Source: Cellvibrio sp. OA-2007
GTDB lineage: Bacteria; Pseudomonadota; Gammaproteobacteria; Pseudomonadales; Cellvibrionaceae
Direction of reading: 5' to 3'
DNA length: 64,000 nucleotides
Assembly: GCF_000953825.1 (NCBI RefSeq)
Contig: NZ_BBUL01000087.1
Coordinates: 62,001 to 126,000, forward strand
The position numbers and the translations under genes are program-made. Within the stretch, counting starts at the first letter, position 1, and every line of letters begins with the position of its first letter. The notes under the pieces are model-generated. The model worked only from the letters and a program-made list of their open reading frames with translations, had not been told where the DNA came from and made no database searches. Shown in pieces: positions 33,398 through 41,452 of this stretch.

Positions 33398-34678
33398 TTA
33401 TTGCGCCACCTTTTGATCAATTGTGACATTAAGATCTGAAGGGATTGACTTCATATCCACCGGGCCAAAACTACCCTGCCAATCGCCCGCTTTAGCGGTT
33501 GCCGTACCATCTTGCGAAATTCGAGCAATCACCTCAATGCTATCCACTGAGCCCAAACTCATCGCCGGCGTCATTGCCATAGCTTCAGTTAACACCACTT
33601 GCTTCGGCAATTCAGACACAGCCACCCGCGTAATGGCCAGAGGCATTTTTGCCCCTTGCCAAGTGCGCGCGTAAATAAACACAATTTGATCAGGGTTAGC
33701 ATCAACACCTTCAGCCAAACTCACATTAACACTCAACTGACGGCCTGCACGGGCGGCAGCAAGGGAGGCCTCTGTGCCACCCTCAGCAAAATACAAGGTG
33801 GCTGCGCGTTCAATACCTGAAATTAATGCCTGACTACCTGGTGAATCCTGTCCAGTCAACTTAACTGTGTGCTCCCAATACTTAATCGCGCCGACGTAAT
33901 CCTTTTTGCCGAATGCATCAATACCCGCAAGGCCTAGAGCCGTCGTGTTATCTGGCTCGACCTTAAGTACTTTTTCAACCAAATCGCTGATTGGTGGACT
34001 CATTTTATTGCCGTCACGCAAAAACATAGCTTGCGCCAACTCAGCCATAATCATCGCGGAGCTACTGTCGCGCTGTAATACTTGTTGATAAGCGTTAACG
34101 GCCTGTGCGAAATCATTTAAATCCATGTGCATCCGCGCCAGAAAAAACCAGTATTGCAATTGCTCAGGTTCATCAGCTAGACGCGCCTGAATCAAGCGCA
34201 CCATCTCACGCGCACGCACCGGATCCGGATTTCGACCAGCTTGATAGTCAGCATTATCAAGCTCTTGCTTAAGCTCTTGCGCCAGACGGATTTCTACATC
34301 GGCGCTGCTGCCCAGCTGCTGATAAAGCCCCCAACTGATCGCAACAATCAATACCGCAATCGCACTCAATGTTTTGATGCCTGCACCCATAGTGCGATTT
34401 TGCTGCGCTGCACGAATGTCAGCCTCGTCATCTAATAACGCACGTTCCTGCTCCAACTTTAATTGCGCAAACTGCTCCTGATCTATACGTCCGGCAGACA
34501 ATTGCACTTCCAACTCAGCGATATGTTCGTGAAACAGGCGCACATTCTCGGCAAGCCGCTCTGCAACCACCTCGCTTGACTGACCATTTTGTTGCTTGCC
34601 GTAACGTACCAGCGGCCAAAAAACAAAACCCAACGCCAACATACTCAGGAGCGCTACACCGACCCACAAGGACATCAT
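33398..34678 (-). CDS. ccmI: cytochrome c biogenesis protein CcmI
   Basis: A membrane chaperone that delivers apocytochrome c to the haem-ligation complex. The 426-residue protein starts with two transmembrane helices (about 3-22 and about 100-117) flanking a cytoplasmic leucine-zipper-like loop, followed by a periplasmic TPR region (about 140-300) and a C-terminal domain rich in beta strands. This is the fused, full-length form. Its ATG overlaps the ccmH TAA by one base, so the two are translationally coupled. Confidence 0.9.
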   Translation of the reverse strand: MMSLWVGVALLSMLALGFVFWPLVRYGKQQNGQSSEVVAERLAENVRLFHEHIAELEVQLSAGRIDQEQFAQLKLEQERALLDDEADIRAAQQNRTMGAGIKTLSAIAVLIVAISWGLYQQLGSSADVEIRLAQELKQELDNADYQAGRNPDPVRAREMVRLIQARLADEPEQLQYWFFLARMHMDLNDFAQAVNAYQQVLQRDSSSAMIMAELAQAMFLRDGNKMSPPISDLVEKVLKVEPDNTTALGLAGIDAFGKKDYVGAIKYWEHTVKLTGQDSPGSQALISGIERAATLYFAEGGTEASLAAARAGRQLSVNVSLAEGVDANPDQIVFIYARTWQGAKMPLAITRVAVSELPKQVVLTEAMAMTPAMSLGSVDSIEVIARISQDGTATAKAGDWQGSFGPVDMKSIPSDLNVTIDQKVAQ

Positions 34679-35205
34679 TATTGTTTCTCCTGATTGGATT
34701 TTTGATCTGTTTGATTGCCAGTATTTTGCACAGGTGATGATTTCAACAAACTCGCTAAACGCGCCTGCTCAGATGAGGTAAGACCCGAATCTACTGCTAC
34801 ATCAAGGCGGCGCCGCTTGCGAACTATAAGTAGCAACATGATGACACCAAACACCAATAAAAATATCGGCGCCCCCCAGAGCAACAAGGTCGCGGGCGAT
34901 AACCGCGGGCGATACAAAATAAACTCGCCGTAACGCTCAACCATAAAATCGACAATCTCTTTATCTGATTTGCCATCTTTTATCATCAACTCAAGTTCGC
35001 GCCGAAGATCTTCAGCAATAGGCGAATTGGTGCCGGCAAGATTTTGGTTTTGGCATTTGGGGCAGCGCATCTCATCAATAAACGTTTGATAGCGCTTGCG
35101 GTCGACATCATTATCAAACTCATGGACTTCGATGGCGGCAAATGAAGAAAGAGAAATAAACAACAACCCGATACAGGTGCATAGTCTTATTAGAGTTGCG
35201 CACAT
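34678..35205 (-). CDS. ccmH: cytochrome c-type biogenesis protein CcmH
   Basis: A periplasmic thioreductant for apocytochrome c cysteines, anchored in the inner membrane. The 175-residue protein has a signal-like N-terminus, the RCPKC redox motif (Cys48 and Cys51), a three-helix domain, and a C-terminal transmembrane helix (about 105-125). I chose the ATG at 35205 because GGAAG lies seven bases upstream; the ATG at 35223 has no ribosome-binding site. It is the single-domain (CcmL-like) form, with the TPR part encoded separately as ccmI. The gene is cut off from ccmG by two tRNA genes and must have its own promoter in 35206-35440. Confidence 0.92.
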   Translation of the reverse strand: MCATLIRLCTCIGLLFISLSSFAAIEVHEFDNDVDRKRYQTFIDEMRCPKCQNQNLAGTNSPIAEDLRRELELMIKDGKSDKEIVDFMVERYGEFILYRPRLSPATLLLWGAPIFLLVFGVIMLLLIVRKRRRLDVAVDSGLTSSEQARLASLLKSSPVQNTGNQTDQKSNQEKQ

Positions 35206-35369
35206 AAATAGGCTTCCACACATTAAATGAAAAATTTGCGCGAGTATAACAACTCATAAGGATGATCGGTAAATTTTGCCCGCAAGACTAAAAATCGATC
35301 ACAAGTGTTTGTTTCATATCCATTTTTTGGTTTTTTTATAAAATTTTCAGGAATCTGTAAAAAAAAGGT

Positions 35370-35397: not shown

Positions 35398-35438
35398 CGC
35401 GCCACCAACAAGGTGAGCGCTGAAAAGCGTAAAATCTT

Positions 35439-35514
35439 GGGCGGTTAGCTCAGTTGGTAGAGCAATGCCCTTACAAGGCATGGGTCACAAGTTCGAGTCT
35501 TGTACCGCCCACCA
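35439..35514 (+). tRNA. tRNA-Val (anticodon TAC)
   Basis: A complete 76-base cloverleaf with encoded CCA. The 7-bp acceptor stem is GGGCGGT pairing with ACCGCCC, the D arm is GCTCAGTTGGTAGAGC, the anticodon loop is CTTACAA and the T loop is TTCGAGT. It matches bacterial valine tRNA closely. It lies on the strand opposite to the surrounding ccm genes. Confidence 0.97.
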
Positions 35515-35553
35515 CTCTTACTCATAAGGTAGTTGTGGTTTTTGTGACGATGC

Positions 35554-35630
35554 GGACCGGTAGTTCAGTCGGTTAGAATGCCGGCCTGTCACGCCGGAGG
35601 TCGCGGGTTCGAGTCCCGTCCGGTCCGCCA
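35554..35630 (+). tRNA. tRNA-Asp (anticodon GTC)
   Basis: A complete 77-base cloverleaf with encoded CCA. The acceptor stem is GGACCGG with CCGGTCC, the anticodon loop is CTGTCAC, and the T arm is GCGGG-TTCGAGT-CCCGT. It follows tRNA-Val by 39 bases and ends 12 bases before a strong terminator, so the pair is one transcription unit. Confidence 0.97.
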
Positions 35631-35642
35631 ACATTTGAAATG

Positions 35643-35670
35643 AAAAAGCCCCACATTTGGGGCTTTTTTT
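35643..35670 (+). terminator. Rho-independent terminator of the tRNA unit
   Basis: AAAAAGCCCC (35643-35652) pairs with GGGGCTTTTT (35659-35668) around a 6-base loop, followed by further T. Confidence 0.9.
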
Positions 35671-35705
35671 ATGGCCGTAAATTAATAGCCACCAAATATT
35701 AATAA

Positions 35706-35735
35706 TAAAAAAGCCCCACGCAGGAGCTTTAGAAA
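35706..35735 (-). terminator. Rho-independent terminator of the small membrane protein gene
   Basis: On the minus strand, AAAGCTCC, a short loop and GGGGCTTTTTT form a GC-containing stem followed by a T-run. It lies about 22 bases after the stop at 35758. Confidence 0.75.
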
Positions 35736-35757
35736 AACCTCAGAACAAAGGTGCAGA

Positions 35758-35904
35758 CTATACAGCTTTGTTGTTAATCACTTGATCAGCCTTCGCTGAA
35801 TCCTCTTTAATATGTTTGTACGCGTAAACACCCACGTAAGTAATCATTATGCATGCCAATGCAACTATTACTAAACCATAAAGAACGATTGAATCAATAT
35901 ACAT
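35758..35904 (-). CDS. 48-residue single-pass membrane protein, unknown
   Basis: A very small protein: a short N-terminus, one hydrophobic helix (about residues 5-27), then a Lys/Asp/Glu-containing tail of 20 residues, probably cytoplasmic. I chose the ATG at 35904 because of an excellent GGAGG five bases upstream; the open frame extends to 35988 but that part overlaps the upstream terminator hairpin. Size and layout recall small accessory subunits such as CcoQ or DUF3149 proteins, but no motif proves this. It has its own terminator and an apparent Anr-dependent promoter (see 35963-35976), which suggests a role at low oxygen. Confidence 0.75.
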   Translation of the reverse strand: MYIDSIVLYGLVIVALACIMITYVGVYAYKHIKEDSAKADQVINNKAV

Positions 35905-35950
35905 AAATACCTCCGCGTTTTTTATTAACAAACTCAGTTTACGCGGGAGG

Positions 35951-35982
35951 AAAAAACTGGGTTTGATCTCGATCAAACCCAG
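35951..35982 (-). terminator. terminator of the ccmABCDEFG operon
   Basis: A perfect 12-bp stem (CTGGGTTTGATC at 35957-35968, GATCAAACCCAG at 35971-35982, 2-base centre). On the minus strand it is followed by six T (35956-35951). It starts 33 bases after the ccmG stop. A two-base centre forces the innermost pairs open, but about ten pairs remain. Confidence 0.75.
35963..35976 (-). promoter_or_regulatory. perfect FNR/Anr box upstream of the small membrane protein
   Basis: TTGAT-N4-ATCAA matches the FNR/Anr consensus at all ten conserved positions. On the minus strand a TAAACT hexamer begins 28 bases after the box centre, and the box would lie near -41, the class II activation position. The start site would fall about 25 bases before the ATG at 35904. 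The site lies inside the stem of the ccmG terminator, so part of the match could come from that palindrome. Confidence 0.55.
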
Positions 35983-36014
35983 ATACATTGAAGAGGGAAT
36001 GGTTAGGCGTACAC

Positions 36015-36560
36015 TCAGTTCAAGCTATCAATTACAGGCTTGATAGTCTGCTCCCATACTTGAGCATTCACATCACCAATATGTTTATAGCGAATCACGC
36101 CTTGCTTATCGATCACATAGGTTTCTGGTGCGCCGAAAACACCCAAGTTCAAGCCTAGGCGACCATCCTCATCAAGCACACTGTAAACATACGGGTTGTG
36201 TAATTCTGCTAACCACCGCTGAGCATCTTCAGTATTGTCTTTGTAGTTAATGCCGTAGATAAGAACGCCCTGCGCCTTAAGCGTATTGAGAAATTCATGT
36301 TCTTGTTTACAAGTGGTGCACCAGGTGGCCCATACATTTAAAAGGCTGACTTTGCCTTTAAGCATTTCATGATTTGCACTTACTAACCCTTGCGGATTTT
36401 CCGGAGCCGGTAAGACCGGCAATTCAAACGCAGGCACTGGCTTGTTCAATAATGCCGATGGCATCTCATTGGGATTTAACGAAAGACCGCGCCAAAACAA
36501 GACAGCCAATAATGCAAAAACAATCAAAGGGATAAATAGAAATAACCGCTGTTTATTCAT
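36015..36560 (-). CDS. ccmG: thiol:disulfide interchange protein CcmG (DsbE)
   Basis: A periplasmic, membrane-tethered thioredoxin-like reductant in cytochrome c maturation. The 181-residue protein has an N-terminal membrane anchor (about 5-23), a thioredoxin fold with the Trp-Cys-Thr-Thr-Cys active site (Cys81, Cys84) and a cis-proline region near Gly-Ala-Pro-Glu-Thr. The start overlaps the ccmF stop by eight bases. It is the last gene of the first ccm block and is followed by a hairpin terminator. Confidence 0.95.
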   Translation of the reverse strand: MNKQRLFLFIPLIVFALLAVLFWRGLSLNPNEMPSALLNKPVPAFELPVLPAPENPQGLVSANHEMLKGKVSLLNVWATWCTTCKQEHEFLNTLKAQGVLIYGINYKDNTEDAQRWLAELHNPYVYSVLDEDGRLGLNLGVFGAPETYVIDKQGVIRYKHIGDVNAQVWEQTIKPVIDSLN

Positions 36561-38559
36561 TGACTAACTTTCCTACCGGATTAGTGACCGCCAGTAATTC
36601 TTGTTTCACAGGTTTGCGGTAACGCTTATCGGCTACTGCGAGCACAGCACCAAAGCCCATCATTAATGCGCCCAACCAAATCCAGCGCACAAATGGCTTG
36701 AGGTGCACACGCATCGCCCAAGCAGTTTCATTTAGGGGTTCTCCCATGGCGACATAAAGATCGCGAAACAAACCTACATCTAACGCCACTTCTGTCATGG
36801 TACTACCTGTTGCGGTGTAGCGGCGCTTTTGTGGTTTCATTTCGCGTAGGAATTTACCGTCTTTCATTACGGTGATGAGCGCCTCTTCAGCAGAGTAATT
36901 GGGGCCATCAATGTGAGTTAGTTTATTGAGAATAAAATCGTATTCTACGACTGTTACTTTCTGCCCTACCTCCATACGAACATCACGCTGCTCGGTATAA
37001 ATACTGGTTAAACCAACACCTACAGTGGTAACCGCAATACCGGCATGAGCAATAATCATTGCAAAGTAACTCACGCTCAACTTTTTAAGGCCTACCATCA
37101 TCGACTCGCTGTTGCGCAAGCGATAAAGCAAATCTGCGACAAGTGCTGTCACTATCCAGCTGGCAATAAACACCGTTAGCGCGGCAAGAATTTCATATTG
37201 ATCGCGATAAACCAGCGGAAAAACCAACGCGATTGCCAGACTAATCGACCAAGGCTTCCACAAGAGTTTCACAAACTGCATACCCGACGTGCGCTTCCAG
37301 TTAGAGAGTGGCCCGAATGCCATCAGTAAGCACAACAAGCCCATTAACGGCAAAAAGAATAAATTGAAATATGGTGGCCCTACAGAAATTTTGCCGAGGC
37401 TAAGCGCATCCGCAACCAACGGATAAAGAGTGCCGATTAACACCATAATCATCAGGATGGTTAACAAAATATTATTGCCGAGCAAAAACGTTTCGCGCGA
37501 TAACAAAGTAAACCCGGCTGAACCCCTTACCACGGGGGCACGCAATGCAAACAGCGTTAGAGAGCCGCCGACCACCACCAAAAAGAAACCAAGAATAAAA
37601 ATACCGCGCTCGGGATCATTAGCAAATGCATGCACCGAAGTCAGCACACCGGAGCGAACCAAAAAGGTGCCCAGCAAACTCAACGAAAAGGTAAAAATGG
37701 CGAGCAATAACGTCCAGCTTTTAAACAAGCTGCGCTTTTCAGTTACTGCGAGCGAGTGAATTAATGCCGTGCCTATTAGCCAAGGTAAAAAGGATGCGTT
37801 CTCTACCGGATCCCAAAACCACCAACCACCCCAGCCCAACTCGTAATAAGCCCACCAACTGCCGAGGGCGATACCAACGGATAAAAAGCCCCAGGCCATA
37901 GTTGCCCAAGGGCGCGACCAACGAGCCCAAGCGCTATCCAAGCGACCCGTCATAAGTGCCGCAATCGCGAAAGCAAATACCACGCTGAAGCCGACATAGC
38001 CCATGTACAACACTGGCGGATGAATAATCAGCCCTATATCTTGTAAGAGTGGATTTAAGTCGCTGCCATCTTGGGGCGGAACGGGAAGAATGCGATCAAA
38101 AGGATTTGAGGTAAATAGAATAAACGATAGAAAACCCACCGCCACAAACCCCATTATCGCTAAAACGCGCGCCTGCATATCCAGTGGCAATGAACGGCTA
38201 AAGATAGCAACCGCCAGCGTCCAACCAGAGAGCATCAAAATCCATAAGAGTAGCGAGCCTTCATGCCCACCCCATACTGCACTGATTTTGTAATAGTAAG
38301 GCAGTAGCGAATTGGAATTGGAGGCAACATATTTAACCGAGAAGTCATCGTGTAAAAACGAATACACGAGGCAACAAAAAGCAAAGACAACAAAGATAAA
38401 AAAACCGGTCGCAAGTGAACGCGCCGATTGCATCAATACATTGCTGCCGTAGTGCGCACCTACCAATGGCAGTACAAACAATGCAGCGCTCAAGCACAAG
38501 GATAGTATTAGCGAGAACTGCCCCATTTCCGGTGCGAGCTGAACTAAATCAAGCGCCAT
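36553..38559 (-). CDS. ccmF: haem lyase CcmF
   Basis: The large membrane subunit that attaches haem to apocytochrome c. The 668-residue protein has about 13-15 transmembrane segments and the WWD signature (Gly-Trp-Gly-Gly-Trp-Trp-Phe-Trp-Asp-Pro-Val-Glu-Asn, about residues 230-245), plus conserved histidines in periplasmic loops and a large periplasmic domain before the last helix. It overlaps ccmE by 11 bases and ccmG by eight, so the operon is tightly coupled. Full length for the family. Confidence 0.96.
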   Translation of the reverse strand: MALDLVQLAPEMGQFSLILSLCLSAALFVLPLVGAHYGSNVLMQSARSLATGFFIFVVFAFCCLVYSFLHDDFSVKYVASNSNSLLPYYYKISAVWGGHEGSLLLWILMLSGWTLAVAIFSRSLPLDMQARVLAIMGFVAVGFLSFILFTSNPFDRILPVPPQDGSDLNPLLQDIGLIIHPPVLYMGYVGFSVVFAFAIAALMTGRLDSAWARWSRPWATMAWGFLSVGIALGSWWAYYELGWGGWWFWDPVENASFLPWLIGTALIHSLAVTEKRSLFKSWTLLLAIFTFSLSLLGTFLVRSGVLTSVHAFANDPERGIFILGFFLVVVGGSLTLFALRAPVVRGSAGFTLLSRETFLLGNNILLTILMIMVLIGTLYPLVADALSLGKISVGPPYFNLFFLPLMGLLCLLMAFGPLSNWKRTSGMQFVKLLWKPWSISLAIALVFPLVYRDQYEILAALTVFIASWIVTALVADLLYRLRNSESMMVGLKKLSVSYFAMIIAHAGIAVTTVGVGLTSIYTEQRDVRMEVGQKVTVVEYDFILNKLTHIDGPNYSAEEALITVMKDGKFLREMKPQKRRYTATGSTMTEVALDVGLFRDLYVAMGEPLNETAWAMRVHLKPFVRWIWLGALMMGFGAVLAVADKRYRKPVKQELLAVTNPVGKLVNE

Positions 38560-39013
38560 ATTTTAAGCCCTCACAGGTCTTTTGATGCTCGCCTTTATCT
38601 TTCATCGCTTCGGCAACTTCAGGTGGAGTGTAATTTTCATCGTGTTTGGCAAGCACCTCACTAGCATTAATCTCGCCGGTTTCAGTTACTATGCCATTGA
38701 TCACTGCGGCCTCTCCTTCGGCGAACAAATCTGGCAAAATTCCGTTGAAATTAACTTTTACATCCGCCGTGCCATCGGTGATCAAAAAGCGAATTTCAAG
38801 CGAATCGCTGGCACGTTCAACACTGCCGGGCTTGACGCAACCACCGGCGCGGATACGGGTATTGTGTGGCACATCACCCGCTGCTATTTTGCTAGGCGGA
38901 TAAAATAAATTGATGTTTTCACGCAACGCGTAAGCCATAAGACCAACAGCAATACTGGAAAACACCACAATAAATATCACAATCATTAAACGTTGCTTGC
39001 GAACCGGATGCAT
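38549..39013 (-). CDS. ccmE: haem chaperone CcmE
   Basis: A membrane-anchored periplasmic haem carrier, 154 residues. It has an N-terminal transmembrane helix (about 8-30), an OB-fold domain, and the covalent haem-binding His124 followed by Tyr128 in the His-Asp-Glu-Asn-Tyr motif. The stop overlaps the ccmF start by 11 bases; 33 bases separate it from ccmD. Confidence 0.95.
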   Translation of the reverse strand: MHPVRKQRLMIVIFIVVFSSIAVGLMAYALRENINLFYPPSKIAAGDVPHNTRIRAGGCVKPGSVERASDSLEIRFLITDGTADVKVNFNGILPDLFAEGEAAVINGIVTETGEINASEVLAKHDENYTPPEVAEAMKDKGEHQKTCEGLKYGA

Positions 39014-39046
39014 GTTTACATTCTCTAACGACTAATACGGATTAAA

Positions 39047-39253
39047 TTATTCAACAGATTGATCTGCTGCTGGATTAGCTTGCGCTAACTTTTGTAATTT
39101 CTGTTGTTGCTTGATAAAGTTTTTTTTCTGCAGCAACGGGCTGACCAATAAAAAAATCAGTGCGGCAAACGTAATTGCATAGGAAGCCCAAACATAAGGG
39201 CCGTGGCCATTCATAGCGATAAAATCAGCAATTGTTTCAAATTGGAATTTCAT
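39047..39253 (-). CDS. ccmD: haem exporter protein CcmD
   Basis: A small membrane protein (68 residues) that releases holo-CcmE from the CcmABC complex. It has the typical Met-x-Gly-His-Gly-Pro-Tyr-Val-Trp-x-Ser-Tyr segment near the N-terminus, one transmembrane helix (about 25-43) and a basic, Gln/Lys-rich tail. I use the ATG at 39253, with GAGGG seven bases upstream; an in-frame GTG two codons earlier overlaps the ccmC stop. Its ATG falls three bases after the start of that stop, so coupling is likely. Confidence 0.9.
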   Translation of the reverse strand: MKFQFETIADFIAMNGHGPYVWASYAITFAALIFLLVSPLLQKKNFIKQQQKLQKLAQANPAADQSVE

Positions 39254-39255
39254 TA

Positions 39256-40008
39256 TCACGCCCTCTTATTGGTTGCACTGATAAGATCACTAACCCATTG
39301 CGTGCGACTTTCACGGCGCAATATTTCCACCCGGGTATTGAGTAAAAGTACTAATGCATAAAATGCGTAAAAACCGATCACCATAATCAATAGCGGATAT
39401 AGCATTGATGGGTCAATGGTAGATTTACTGGTGAATTTAATCGTTGCAGGCTGATGCAGTGTGTTCCACCAATCGACTGACTTGTAAATGATCGGAATAT
39501 TCACCATGCCCACCAAGGCCAAGACTGCGCTGGCTTTATCGGAGGTATCGCGATGGGTAAATGCTTGCTGTAAAGCAATCATGCCCAAATAGAGGAAAAA
39601 TAAAATTAACATGGAGGTGATACGTGCATCCCATTCCCACCAGGTACCCCAGGTAGGCTTGCCCCAAATGGAACCCGTCACCAGCGATACAAATGTTAAT
39701 AGAGCACCAATCGGCGCAGCGGATTTCATCACCATAAAGGGCAACTTCATTTTCCAGATAAGACCAACAGCTCCGGAGATCGCCATAATGTAATAACCCG
39801 CCAAGGCTAAGAATGCAGCGGGAACGTGAATATAAATAATGCGGTAACTATTGCCCTGCTTGAAATCAGCGGGGGCAAATGCCAACCCCCACACCGCTCC
39901 CGTCAGCAGAAGCGCAATGCTCAGTGCCGCCAACCAAGGCATCCAAGCAGTTGTTTTTTCGTAAAACCAACGGGGAGAGCCTAATCGATGAAACCATTGC
40001 CATGCCAT
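39256..40008 (-). CDS. ccmC: haem exporter/handling protein CcmC
   Basis: A six-helix membrane protein that presents haem to CcmE. The 250-residue protein carries the WWD-type signature (Gly-Thr-Trp-Trp-Glu-Trp-Asp-Ala-Arg, about 125-133) and histidines in flanking periplasmic loops (in the Tyr-Ile-His-Val-Pro and Asn-Thr-Leu-His-Gln-Pro segments). Length and order fit the family. A 42-base gap separates it from ccmB. Confidence 0.96.
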   Translation of the reverse strand: MAWQWFHRLGSPRWFYEKTTAWMPWLAALSIALLLTGAVWGLAFAPADFKQGNSYRIIYIHVPAAFLALAGYYIMAISGAVGLIWKMKLPFMVMKSAAPIGALLTFVSLVTGSIWGKPTWGTWWEWDARITSMLILFFLYLGMIALQQAFTHRDTSDKASAVLALVGMVNIPIIYKSVDWWNTLHQPATIKFTSKSTIDPSMLYPLLIMVIGFYAFYALVLLLNTRVEILRRESRTQWVSDLISATNKRA

Positions 40009-40050
40009 AGTAAGAGACCTTATTGCAGTTTAGCTGATCGTTATTATTAG

Positions 40051-40749
40051 TTAACCATTTGTACTTATACGCAGCGCACCCAGCGCTGCTATGGGTGCCA
40101 GCACTATTGCCAATGCCAGAAATGCCCCTAATACGGCGAGCTGCATACCCACTGCCCCGCCCTGTACTGCAGATTGCACCGCACTTGCACCAAAAATCAG
40201 TACTGGAATATACAGCGGCATGACAATCAAGGACAACAACAAACCGCCCTTACGCAGCGAAACTGTTAAGGCTGCACCCACTGCGCCGATCAAACTCATG
40301 GATGCCGTACCTAATGCCAATGATGCCAGCAATGGAAGATAACCTTCTCCTGGCAAACTCAACATCAAACCCAGCAGCGGTGCGAGCAAGGTCACTGGTA
40401 AACCCGAGACCAACCAGTGCACCAGCACTTTTGCCATCACCGTAAAGTACAGTGACTGCGGACTAATCAACATTTGCTCTAGGGAGCCATCATCGTAATC
40501 GCTGCGAAATAAACCGTCTAACGACAATAGGGTCGCCAGCAGTGCCATCACCCAGACAATTCCCGGCGCCAGTAATGCCAGTACCGATTTTTCCGGGCTG
40601 ACCCCCAAGGGAATCAGCGTTACCGCAATCAGGAAAAATACGAGAGGATTGGTTAACTCGGCCTTATGACGCGCCGCGATTAACATATCGCGGCGGAAAC
40701 TGGCGATAAATCCCCCCCACAAACTTACTGCCGGATACTGATCAGCCAT
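40051..40749 (-). CDS. ccmB: haem exporter permease CcmB
   Basis: The ABC-type membrane subunit that works with CcmA to release haem-bound CcmE. The 232-residue protein has six predicted transmembrane helices and the N-terminal Phe-Arg-Arg-Asp segment typical of the family. I chose the ATG at 40749; an in-frame GTG lies three codons earlier. It overlaps the ccmA stop by eight bases. Confidence 0.94.
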   Translation of the reverse strand: MADQYPAVSLWGGFIASFRRDMLIAARHKAELTNPLVFFLIAVTLIPLGVSPEKSVLALLAPGIVWVMALLATLLSLDGLFRSDYDDGSLEQMLISPQSLYFTVMAKVLVHWLVSGLPVTLLAPLLGLMLSLPGEGYLPLLASLALGTASMSLIGAVGAALTVSLRKGGLLLSLIVMPLYIPVLIFGASAVQSAVQGGAVGMQLAVLGAFLALAIVLAPIAALGALRISTNG

Positions 40750-41452
40750 GATACGCACCGTCGCTCGTCAGACCACCAAGATCATCGTTGGTTTTATCCC
40801 CTGCACGAGCGGGCTGATAATCTTGCAAATTCACCATACGCAACTGCGGCAGGGTTAGATCCTGATGCGAGGTCAGAATCACCACTCCGCCCTTGGCTGA
40901 CTGCTGGGCGATTAGCGTCTCCAACTGGCTTACGCCCAACTTGTCGATCGCGGTGAAGGGCTCGTCCAGAATCCAGATGCGCGCGCGGCTCAAATGCAAC
41001 CTTGCCAATGCAACCCGGCGCAACTGCCCTGCGGATAGTTGGTAGCACGGGGTGTCTTCGTAGCCATAGAGGCCAACAGCCGCTAATGCGTCATTAACCG
41101 CAATTGCCGCACCGCTCTGGGCTTGGTACCACGCCAGATTTTCGGCAGGTGTTAAGGCTTTTTTGATACCAGGTAAATGTCCTAGGTAAAGGCTGTCGCC
41201 CGCGAACTCCCAAGCTGCCTCAGGCAAACGTTGGTCAGCGTAAAGGATTTGACCAAGATAATCCGTGCTGATGCCCGCAAGAGCGCGCAATAAAGTCGTT
41301 TTACCTGCGCCGTTAGGGCCACCGATTTGCACCACATCACCTGGGTAGAGCTGTAAATCCAACTCTGCAAATAGCAGGCGCTCGTCCCGCTCACAGCCAA
41401 GTTTACGCAGCTCAAGTAGTGGAATTTTCACCTTGGTTACCGAATCGGTCAT
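40742..41452 (-). CDS. ccmA: haem exporter ATP-binding protein CcmA
   Basis: The ABC ATPase of the CcmABCD complex, 236 residues. Walker A is Gly-Gly-Pro-Asn-Gly-Ala-Gly-Lys-Thr-Thr (about 44-53), the signature is Leu-Ser-Ala-Gly-Gln-Leu-Arg-Arg (about 140-147), and Walker B is Ile-Trp-Ile-Leu-Asp-Glu-Pro. It is the first gene of the ccmABCDEFG block, divergent from the fliK-like gene with 164 bases of shared upstream DNA. Confidence 0.94.
   Translation of the reverse strand: MTDSVTKVKIPLLELRKLGCERDERLLFAELDLQLYPGDVVQIGGPNGAGKTTLLRALAGISTDYLGQILYADQRLPEAAWEFAGDSLYLGHLPGIKKALTPAENLAWYQAQSGAAIAVNDALAAVGLYGYEDTPCYQLSAGQLRRVALARLHLSRARIWILDEPFTAIDKLGVSQLETLIAQQSAKGGVVILTSHQDLTLPQLRMVNLQDYQPARAGDKTNDDLGGLTSDGAYHG

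Follow-up and report, generated by a model that had tools for sequence, protein, structure and literature searches.

Can one short palindrome both end the transcription of an operon and start that of the gene behind it? At the end of the cytochrome c maturation genes of Cellvibrio sp. OA-2007, the first-pass annotation had proposed just such an element, a terminator hairpin containing an FNR/Anr site, followed by the gene of a small membrane protein. We examined the proposal in the 64,000-nucleotide stretch of DNA to which it refers (the window) and in related genomes, asking which parts of the element are conserved, and where.

The palindrome and its neighbours

The gene immediately upstream of the hairpin is ccmG of the dsbE family (36015–36560, minus strand), the last gene of ccmA–G, which matches NCBIfam TIGR00385 with 185.9 bits against a cut-off of 123.15. 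Family models confirmed each of ccmA, B, C, E, F and G on the minus strand of the window. Past ccmG on this strand lie, in order, the hairpin, the small gene of 48 codons, a pair of tRNA genes encoded on the opposite strand, and ccmH- and ccmI-like genes that family models place on the same strand as ccmA–G, the ccmH-like protein scoring below the cut-off of the one model that it matched. The claim that the ccmABCDEFG operon ends at the hairpin needs a small correction in that the ccmH- and ccmI-like genes continue the cluster downstream. The ccm cluster lies in two blocks, 33398–35223 and 36015–41452, with the ccoM-like gene and the tRNA genes (Val and Asp) between them, and a terminator-like hairpin (35710–35730, minus strand) is seen 3′ of the small gene. 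In two Cellvibrio genomes, ccmG-like genes form a tandem pair (L012, G005:C42, and L017, G003:C211).

The hairpin (35957–35982, minus strand) has the perfect 12-nt arms (35957–35968 and 35971–35982) and the T6 tail (35951–35956, minus strand) that had been described for it. In its folded form it is an 11-bp stem closed by the tetraloop CGAG, with a minimum free energy of −15.7 kcal/mol that is equalled by 1 of 200 shuffles. Five of the 11 pairs are G-C and the T6 tract comes behind them, the make-up of an intrinsic terminator; we propose it as that of ccmA–G. Its inner part is the FNR/Anr box TTGATCGAGATCAA (35963–35976, minus strand), an exact match to the consensus TTGATN4ATCAA, as the first reading had it, and the sole exact match in the window, where 0.15 would be expected. 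Among the seven perfect hairpins listed with stems of at least 9 pairs, only that at 35957–35982 contains the box. The tetraloop is exactly the N4 spacer of the box, so that any exact FNR box can by itself fold as a tetraloop hairpin of 5 bp; the addition of flanks with G-C pairs and of a T tract would give a terminator-like element. The earlier caution that the palindrome could create part of the match holds for the second half-site, which follows from the first. The chance of TTGAT in the right register, given a perfect palindrome, is about 0.0012, and the box is kept where the stem is absent (see below).

Class II FNR/Anr-dependent promoters have the box centre near −41.5 and a −10 hexamer at a fixed distance from it. 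Here the hexamer TAAACT (35941–35936, minus strand) begins 28.5 nt beyond the box centre (35969.5), close to the 28 bases noted at first pass, and this spacing would put the transcription start at 35928–35929 (+1 at about 35929) on the minus strand and the box near −41. Downstream of the hexamer come GGAGG (35914–35910) and the ATG at 35904 that opens the 48 codons, which agree with the ribosome-binding site and small open reading frame described there. A generic scan of 35400–36600 returned no sigma-70-like site, an expected and uninformative outcome because the promoter would be an activated one.

The 48-residue membrane protein encoded by the small gene (35758–35904, minus strand) resembles CcoM, a subunit of cbb3 cytochrome oxidase. 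Its best NCBIfam match is to the CcoM model NF041600 (E 1.5e-5), and since this match reaches 25.3 bits, under the curated cut-off of 40, and the next model, the conjugative membrane family TIGR03745, scores 23.0 bits, we limit the label to CcoM-like. In Pfam all matches fall under their cut-offs, the best being to DUF2976 with 20.1 against 28.2 bits. With NF041600, each of the 29 aligned homologues gives an E value of 0.01 or less (best 1.8e-11); 14 of them also match the conjugative family TIGR03745 (best 5.3e-5). The profile of the protein matches chain N (36 residues) of PDB entry 5djq with an E value of 6.2e-5, the alignment running from residue 1 over the hydrophobic helix; we take this entry to be a cbb3 oxidase with its CcoM. 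The likeness to the CcoM of the Pseudomonas stutzeri cbb3 oxidase is that of a small protein aligned from residue 1 over the hydrophobic helix, whereas the Cellvibrio protein has 48 rather than 36 residues, falls below the NCBIfam cut-off and is encoded behind ccmG in the Cellvibrio genomes. Low-oxygen control of the small gene would be sensible because the gene is CcoM-like. CcoM, a protein of 36 residues, is given a role at low oxygen in PMC10433244, the one bacterial paper among those found to mention both CcoM and Anr, which describes no ccoM promoter in the parts of its text available to us, and our search found no literature that pairs CcoM with FNR. In one further genome (L043, G010:C13) the CcoM-like frame is without its usual C-terminus and continues into the adjoining tRNA gene region.

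Conservation of the box and distribution of the stem

Of the genomes with a match, 66 of the 72 in the same family and 55 of the 101 in other families supplied the 121 homologous genes analysed; the remaining 6 and 46, mostly with weaker matches, did not enter the box count. The box was sought within 250 nt upstream of each gene (93 nt in one) at a threshold of at least 9/10, with dinucleotide shuffles as the control. It was found in 103 of the 121 genes, as against about 1.5 by shuffles, the genes belonging to related genomes and so not being independent events. Boxes of at least 9/10 precede 64 of 66 same-family and 39 of 55 other-family ccoM-like genes (shuffles, 1.0 and 0.5), and are exact in 41 and 20 genes, respectively; in the other 18 of the 121, the best upstream match is below 9/10. 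The distance to the −10 element is conserved with the box: of the 103 boxed genes, 64 have TAnnnT starting at base 29 from the box centre and another 29 have it at base 30, while each other position from 8 to 69 accounts for 0–10 genes. An equivalent 3-nt test shifted to 40–60 nt gives 1–6 genes, compared with 93 of 103 at 29–30 nt. Box and −10 spacing together form the geometry of a class II FNR promoter, and as sequence evidence for a promoter we regard them as strong.

Whether TTGAT/ATCAA persists independently of the stem, a check that the first-pass annotation had put forward, is answered by the 95 of 103 boxed genes that keep the box with no perfect extension of at least 6 pairs, among them G004, which has a long stem with one mismatch; 57 of the 103 have no extra pair beyond the box at all. 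Judged by this distribution, the box is the old, conserved part of the element. Of the 103 boxed genes, 8 have a stem that extends perfectly by 6 or more pairs, where swapped flanks give 0.39, and 7 of these 8 extended stems come from Cellvibrio genomes in which ccmG is followed by ccoM after about 110 nt. A 7-pair extension in G060 (L139), which contains no G-C pair, was taken as chance and not as a real stem. In G008 both box and stem are kept and the ccoM frame is missing behind ccmG (by eye; L002, L193, G008:C420); this genome is 79% complete with no ccoM found anywhere in it, and the gene may be in the missing part.

Counting G004 and G008 with these seven, the long stem centred on the box occurs in nine Cellvibrio genomes, all within one clade of 12 that has a support of 97/97 in a midpoint-rooted tree of part of ccmF plus ccmG. 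It is absent from three members of the clade: G001, which retains the box and has ccoM some 3.9 kb away from ccmG, and G007 and G017, where there is no stem though ccoM is still adjacent to ccmG. The tree requires three changes for the stem, and one gain followed by two losses fits.

Compensatory changes that destroy the box, which had been named beforehand as evidence against a dual element, were not what the nine stem genomes contained; the opposite was found, as all five box pairs are invariant and four of the six outer pairs have changed on both sides yet stay paired. In these genomes 98 of 99 cells are paired, compared with 28–60% when the partner is slid by 1–3 columns. None of 500 shuffles attains the covariation score, while 12 attain the count of doubly changed pairs and 18 that of pair types; these figures come from nine related genomes, four of which share one of the double changes (C-G to G-U). 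Flanks that are paired whatever their sequence argue for an RNA hairpin, and half-sites that are fixed in sequence argue for a protein site; the terminator arms seem to have been added to the box later.

Regulator, proposed mechanism and alternatives

An Fnr is among the proteins of the genome, scoring 284.8 bits with NF008365 (cut-off 228); its sequence shows N-terminal cysteines and one more besides, the pattern of oxygen-sensing Fnr proteins. Exact boxes number 22 genome-wide, against 3 for the reversed control, and 11 of the 22 are inside long reading frames. The ccoN gene has one about 176 nt upstream (L063, G000:C2:39609–39622), and fnr itself has another, 105 nt upstream (L067, G000:C4:7494–7507). 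Each of the 21 exact boxes other than that at the ccoM-like gene has at most 3 extra pairs. An exact box was also seen, by eye, upstream of an nrdG-looking gene (L068).

The conservation of box and spacing, the covariation and the encoded Fnr together support the original idea that one element ends ccm transcription and starts a low-oxygen gene. The reading that we consider likely is a class II FNR-dependent promoter that serves the ccoM-like gene and whose operator grew, in one lineage of Cellvibrio, into the intrinsic terminator of ccmA–G. As DNA, TTGAT-N4-ATCAA would bind an Fnr dimer near −41 at low oxygen, and ccoM transcription would start at about 35929. In RNA arriving from ccmG, the half-sites and the added G-C-containing flanks would form the 11-bp hairpin with the N4 spacer as its tetraloop, and hairpin and T tract would release the polymerase upstream of the −10 element. 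Fnr binding, the oxygen response and termination are all things that we infer from sequence.

The strongest competitor, which we nevertheless think unlikely, accepts the FNR box as real but gives the outer stem and T tract no part in ending transcription in the cell. A terminator at the ccmG–ccoM junction is indeed not essential, because 8 of the 16 genomes with ccoM directly behind ccmG have no stem, and in two genomes that keep it, G002 and G008, the T tails are poor, that of G002 being too weak to count under the tail criterion. A stem plus T tract overlapping the box is nonetheless found in 7 of the 16 adjacent genomes, and an outer stem without function would not readily account for pairs that change on both sides with pairing kept. 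The absence of the stem, with the box kept, in G001, where the two genes are far apart, also speaks against this alternative, although G007 and G017 are without the stem while adjacent. In G009 a separate hairpin was noticed by eye between ccmG and the box, below the stem-plus-T rule.

We see a rather small chance that the user of the box is another CRP/FNR-family protein with an identical consensus, such as a Dnr-type nitric-oxide sensor; this would be compatible with the promoter-terminator reading. Anr and Dnr have a common consensus and further CRP/FNR-domain proteins are encoded in the genome; that a clear Fnr is present, and that an exact box is found at ccoN as well, favours Fnr over them.

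Box-bearing hairpins elsewhere were collected with the pattern box, 4–9 nt and T6 in 390 genomes of the order and with box, 4–9 nt and T5 in 21 genomes of the genus, and the places inspected were loci L202–L260 (some of which repeat a place) and 40 further places of the order listing. Besides ccoM, six genomes of the order have, between them, seven places where a long stem with 7–16 extra pairs is centred on an exact box (L277, L281, L285, L286, L287, L290 and L293), and a T-tailed long stem centred on the box occurs in the Cellvibrio genome G013 (L250). Only one of these eight, L287 (G114:C1:249004–249046), has TAnnnT at offset 29, and most of the eight are presumably ordinary terminators with a chance match. 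On this survey a terminator can contain the box by chance, and such hairpins are not unique to ccoM as a pattern; what sets the ccoM element apart is the conservation of its box without the stem and of the −10 distance, by which the box predates the stem. The reading in which the element is a terminator only and the FNR match a by-product of its palindrome, for which one may cite that the first half-site dictates the second and that seven of the eight other T-tailed hairpins have no hexamer at offset 29, was rejected as highly improbable because the box is conserved without the stem, in many genomes and at a fixed −10 spacing, and the right register would so seldom arise by chance.

Known systems and possible masking of the ribosome-binding site

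The promoter-terminator element shares with class II FNR/Anr promoters the sequence TTGATN4ATCAA, its centre near −41 and a −10 hexamer at a fixed distance, and differs from them in that the Cellvibrio operator doubles as the inner half of the terminator hairpin of the upstream operon. The nearest case that we found is the meningococcal cbbA–fHbp region, in which, according to three papers (PMC5976157, PMC3949423 and PMC4999090), the FNR box comes after a predicted terminator and read-through has been studied. The order of parts is alike (an upstream gene, a predicted Rho-independent terminator and an FNR-box promoter of the next gene), but the predicted meningococcal terminator is built, by the same accounts, from DNA uptake sequences that directly follow cbbA, and it is described apart from the FNR box, whereas in Cellvibrio one palindrome would be both. 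Our search for an overlap of terminator and FNR box found nothing closer, most subscription papers lying outside it.

In the Cellvibrio element one sequence has apparently been selected twice, once as DNA to which a protein binds and once as an RNA hairpin, the two roles being told apart by box pairs that are fixed and flanks that drift yet stay paired. An FNR-box promoter layout for a small oxidase subunit is kept in many families of the order, and its Cellvibrio form suggests a way to insulate neighbouring operons without extra DNA. An FNR box with its 4-base spacer would be a ready-made tetraloop hairpin that evolution could convert into a terminator.

Transcripts that read through the hairpin would carry one more sequence of interest, CCTCCCGCG (35942–35950, minus strand), upstream of the −10 element, which we propose as an anti-Shine-Dalgarno arm. 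It would be absent from RNA started at the ccoM promoter, and its predicted partner is CGCGGAGG (35910–35917, minus strand), inside which the Shine-Dalgarno sequence lies. In the predicted fold of RNA coming from ccmG the Shine-Dalgarno sequence is paired, at −11.6 kcal/mol (z −1.63; 9 of 200 shuffles fold as well), compared with −0.4 for RNA starting at 35929. Complementarity of arm and Shine-Dalgarno sequence has p < 0.05 in 9 of the 16 adjacent genes against 14 of 87 others, and is not significant in 7 of the 16. Swapping arms between genomes raises the mean arm energy of the 16 adjacent genes and G001 from −15.2 to −11.7, and 0 of 2000 swaps reach the observed value, as against 1825 of 2000 when these 17 genes are tested with a control segment that lies upstream of the box. 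Ten genomes, hand-picked one per clade, gave 2 of 2000. The arm sequences vary between clades, as in G001 and G018.

Among the other genes the observed value is reached by 3 of 2000 swaps in the co-directional, 17 in the divergent and 0 in the whole set, and the upstream control segments of these genes give 121, 810 and 99, respectively; the orientation labels are crude (G019 is mislabelled), the swap test in a mixed gene set is confounded by G+C, and 14 of the 103 rows were dropped for want of a clear −10, for a short right arm or for a long leader. The weaker arm effect in other genes, the divergent ones included, may be explicable by G+C.

That the arm masks the Shine-Dalgarno sequence in read-through RNA and leaves the native transcript unmasked is, on these models, a possibility that we rate well below even. 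We offer as no less tentative a proposal that a double lock sits at this one 80-base site and keeps ccoM off except when its own promoter is active: the FNR operator, transcribed into RNA, would terminate the upstream operon, any read-through transcript would carry the Shine-Dalgarno-pairing arm (at or just before the −10), and the Fnr-started transcript, free of the arm, would be translated. In the fold-back inhibition of IS10 the ribosome-binding site is hidden in read-through RNA and free in the native transcript. The Cellvibrio case would be alike in hiding the site in the one RNA and not in the other, and would differ from IS10 in concerning a cellular respiratory gene; it is a prediction.
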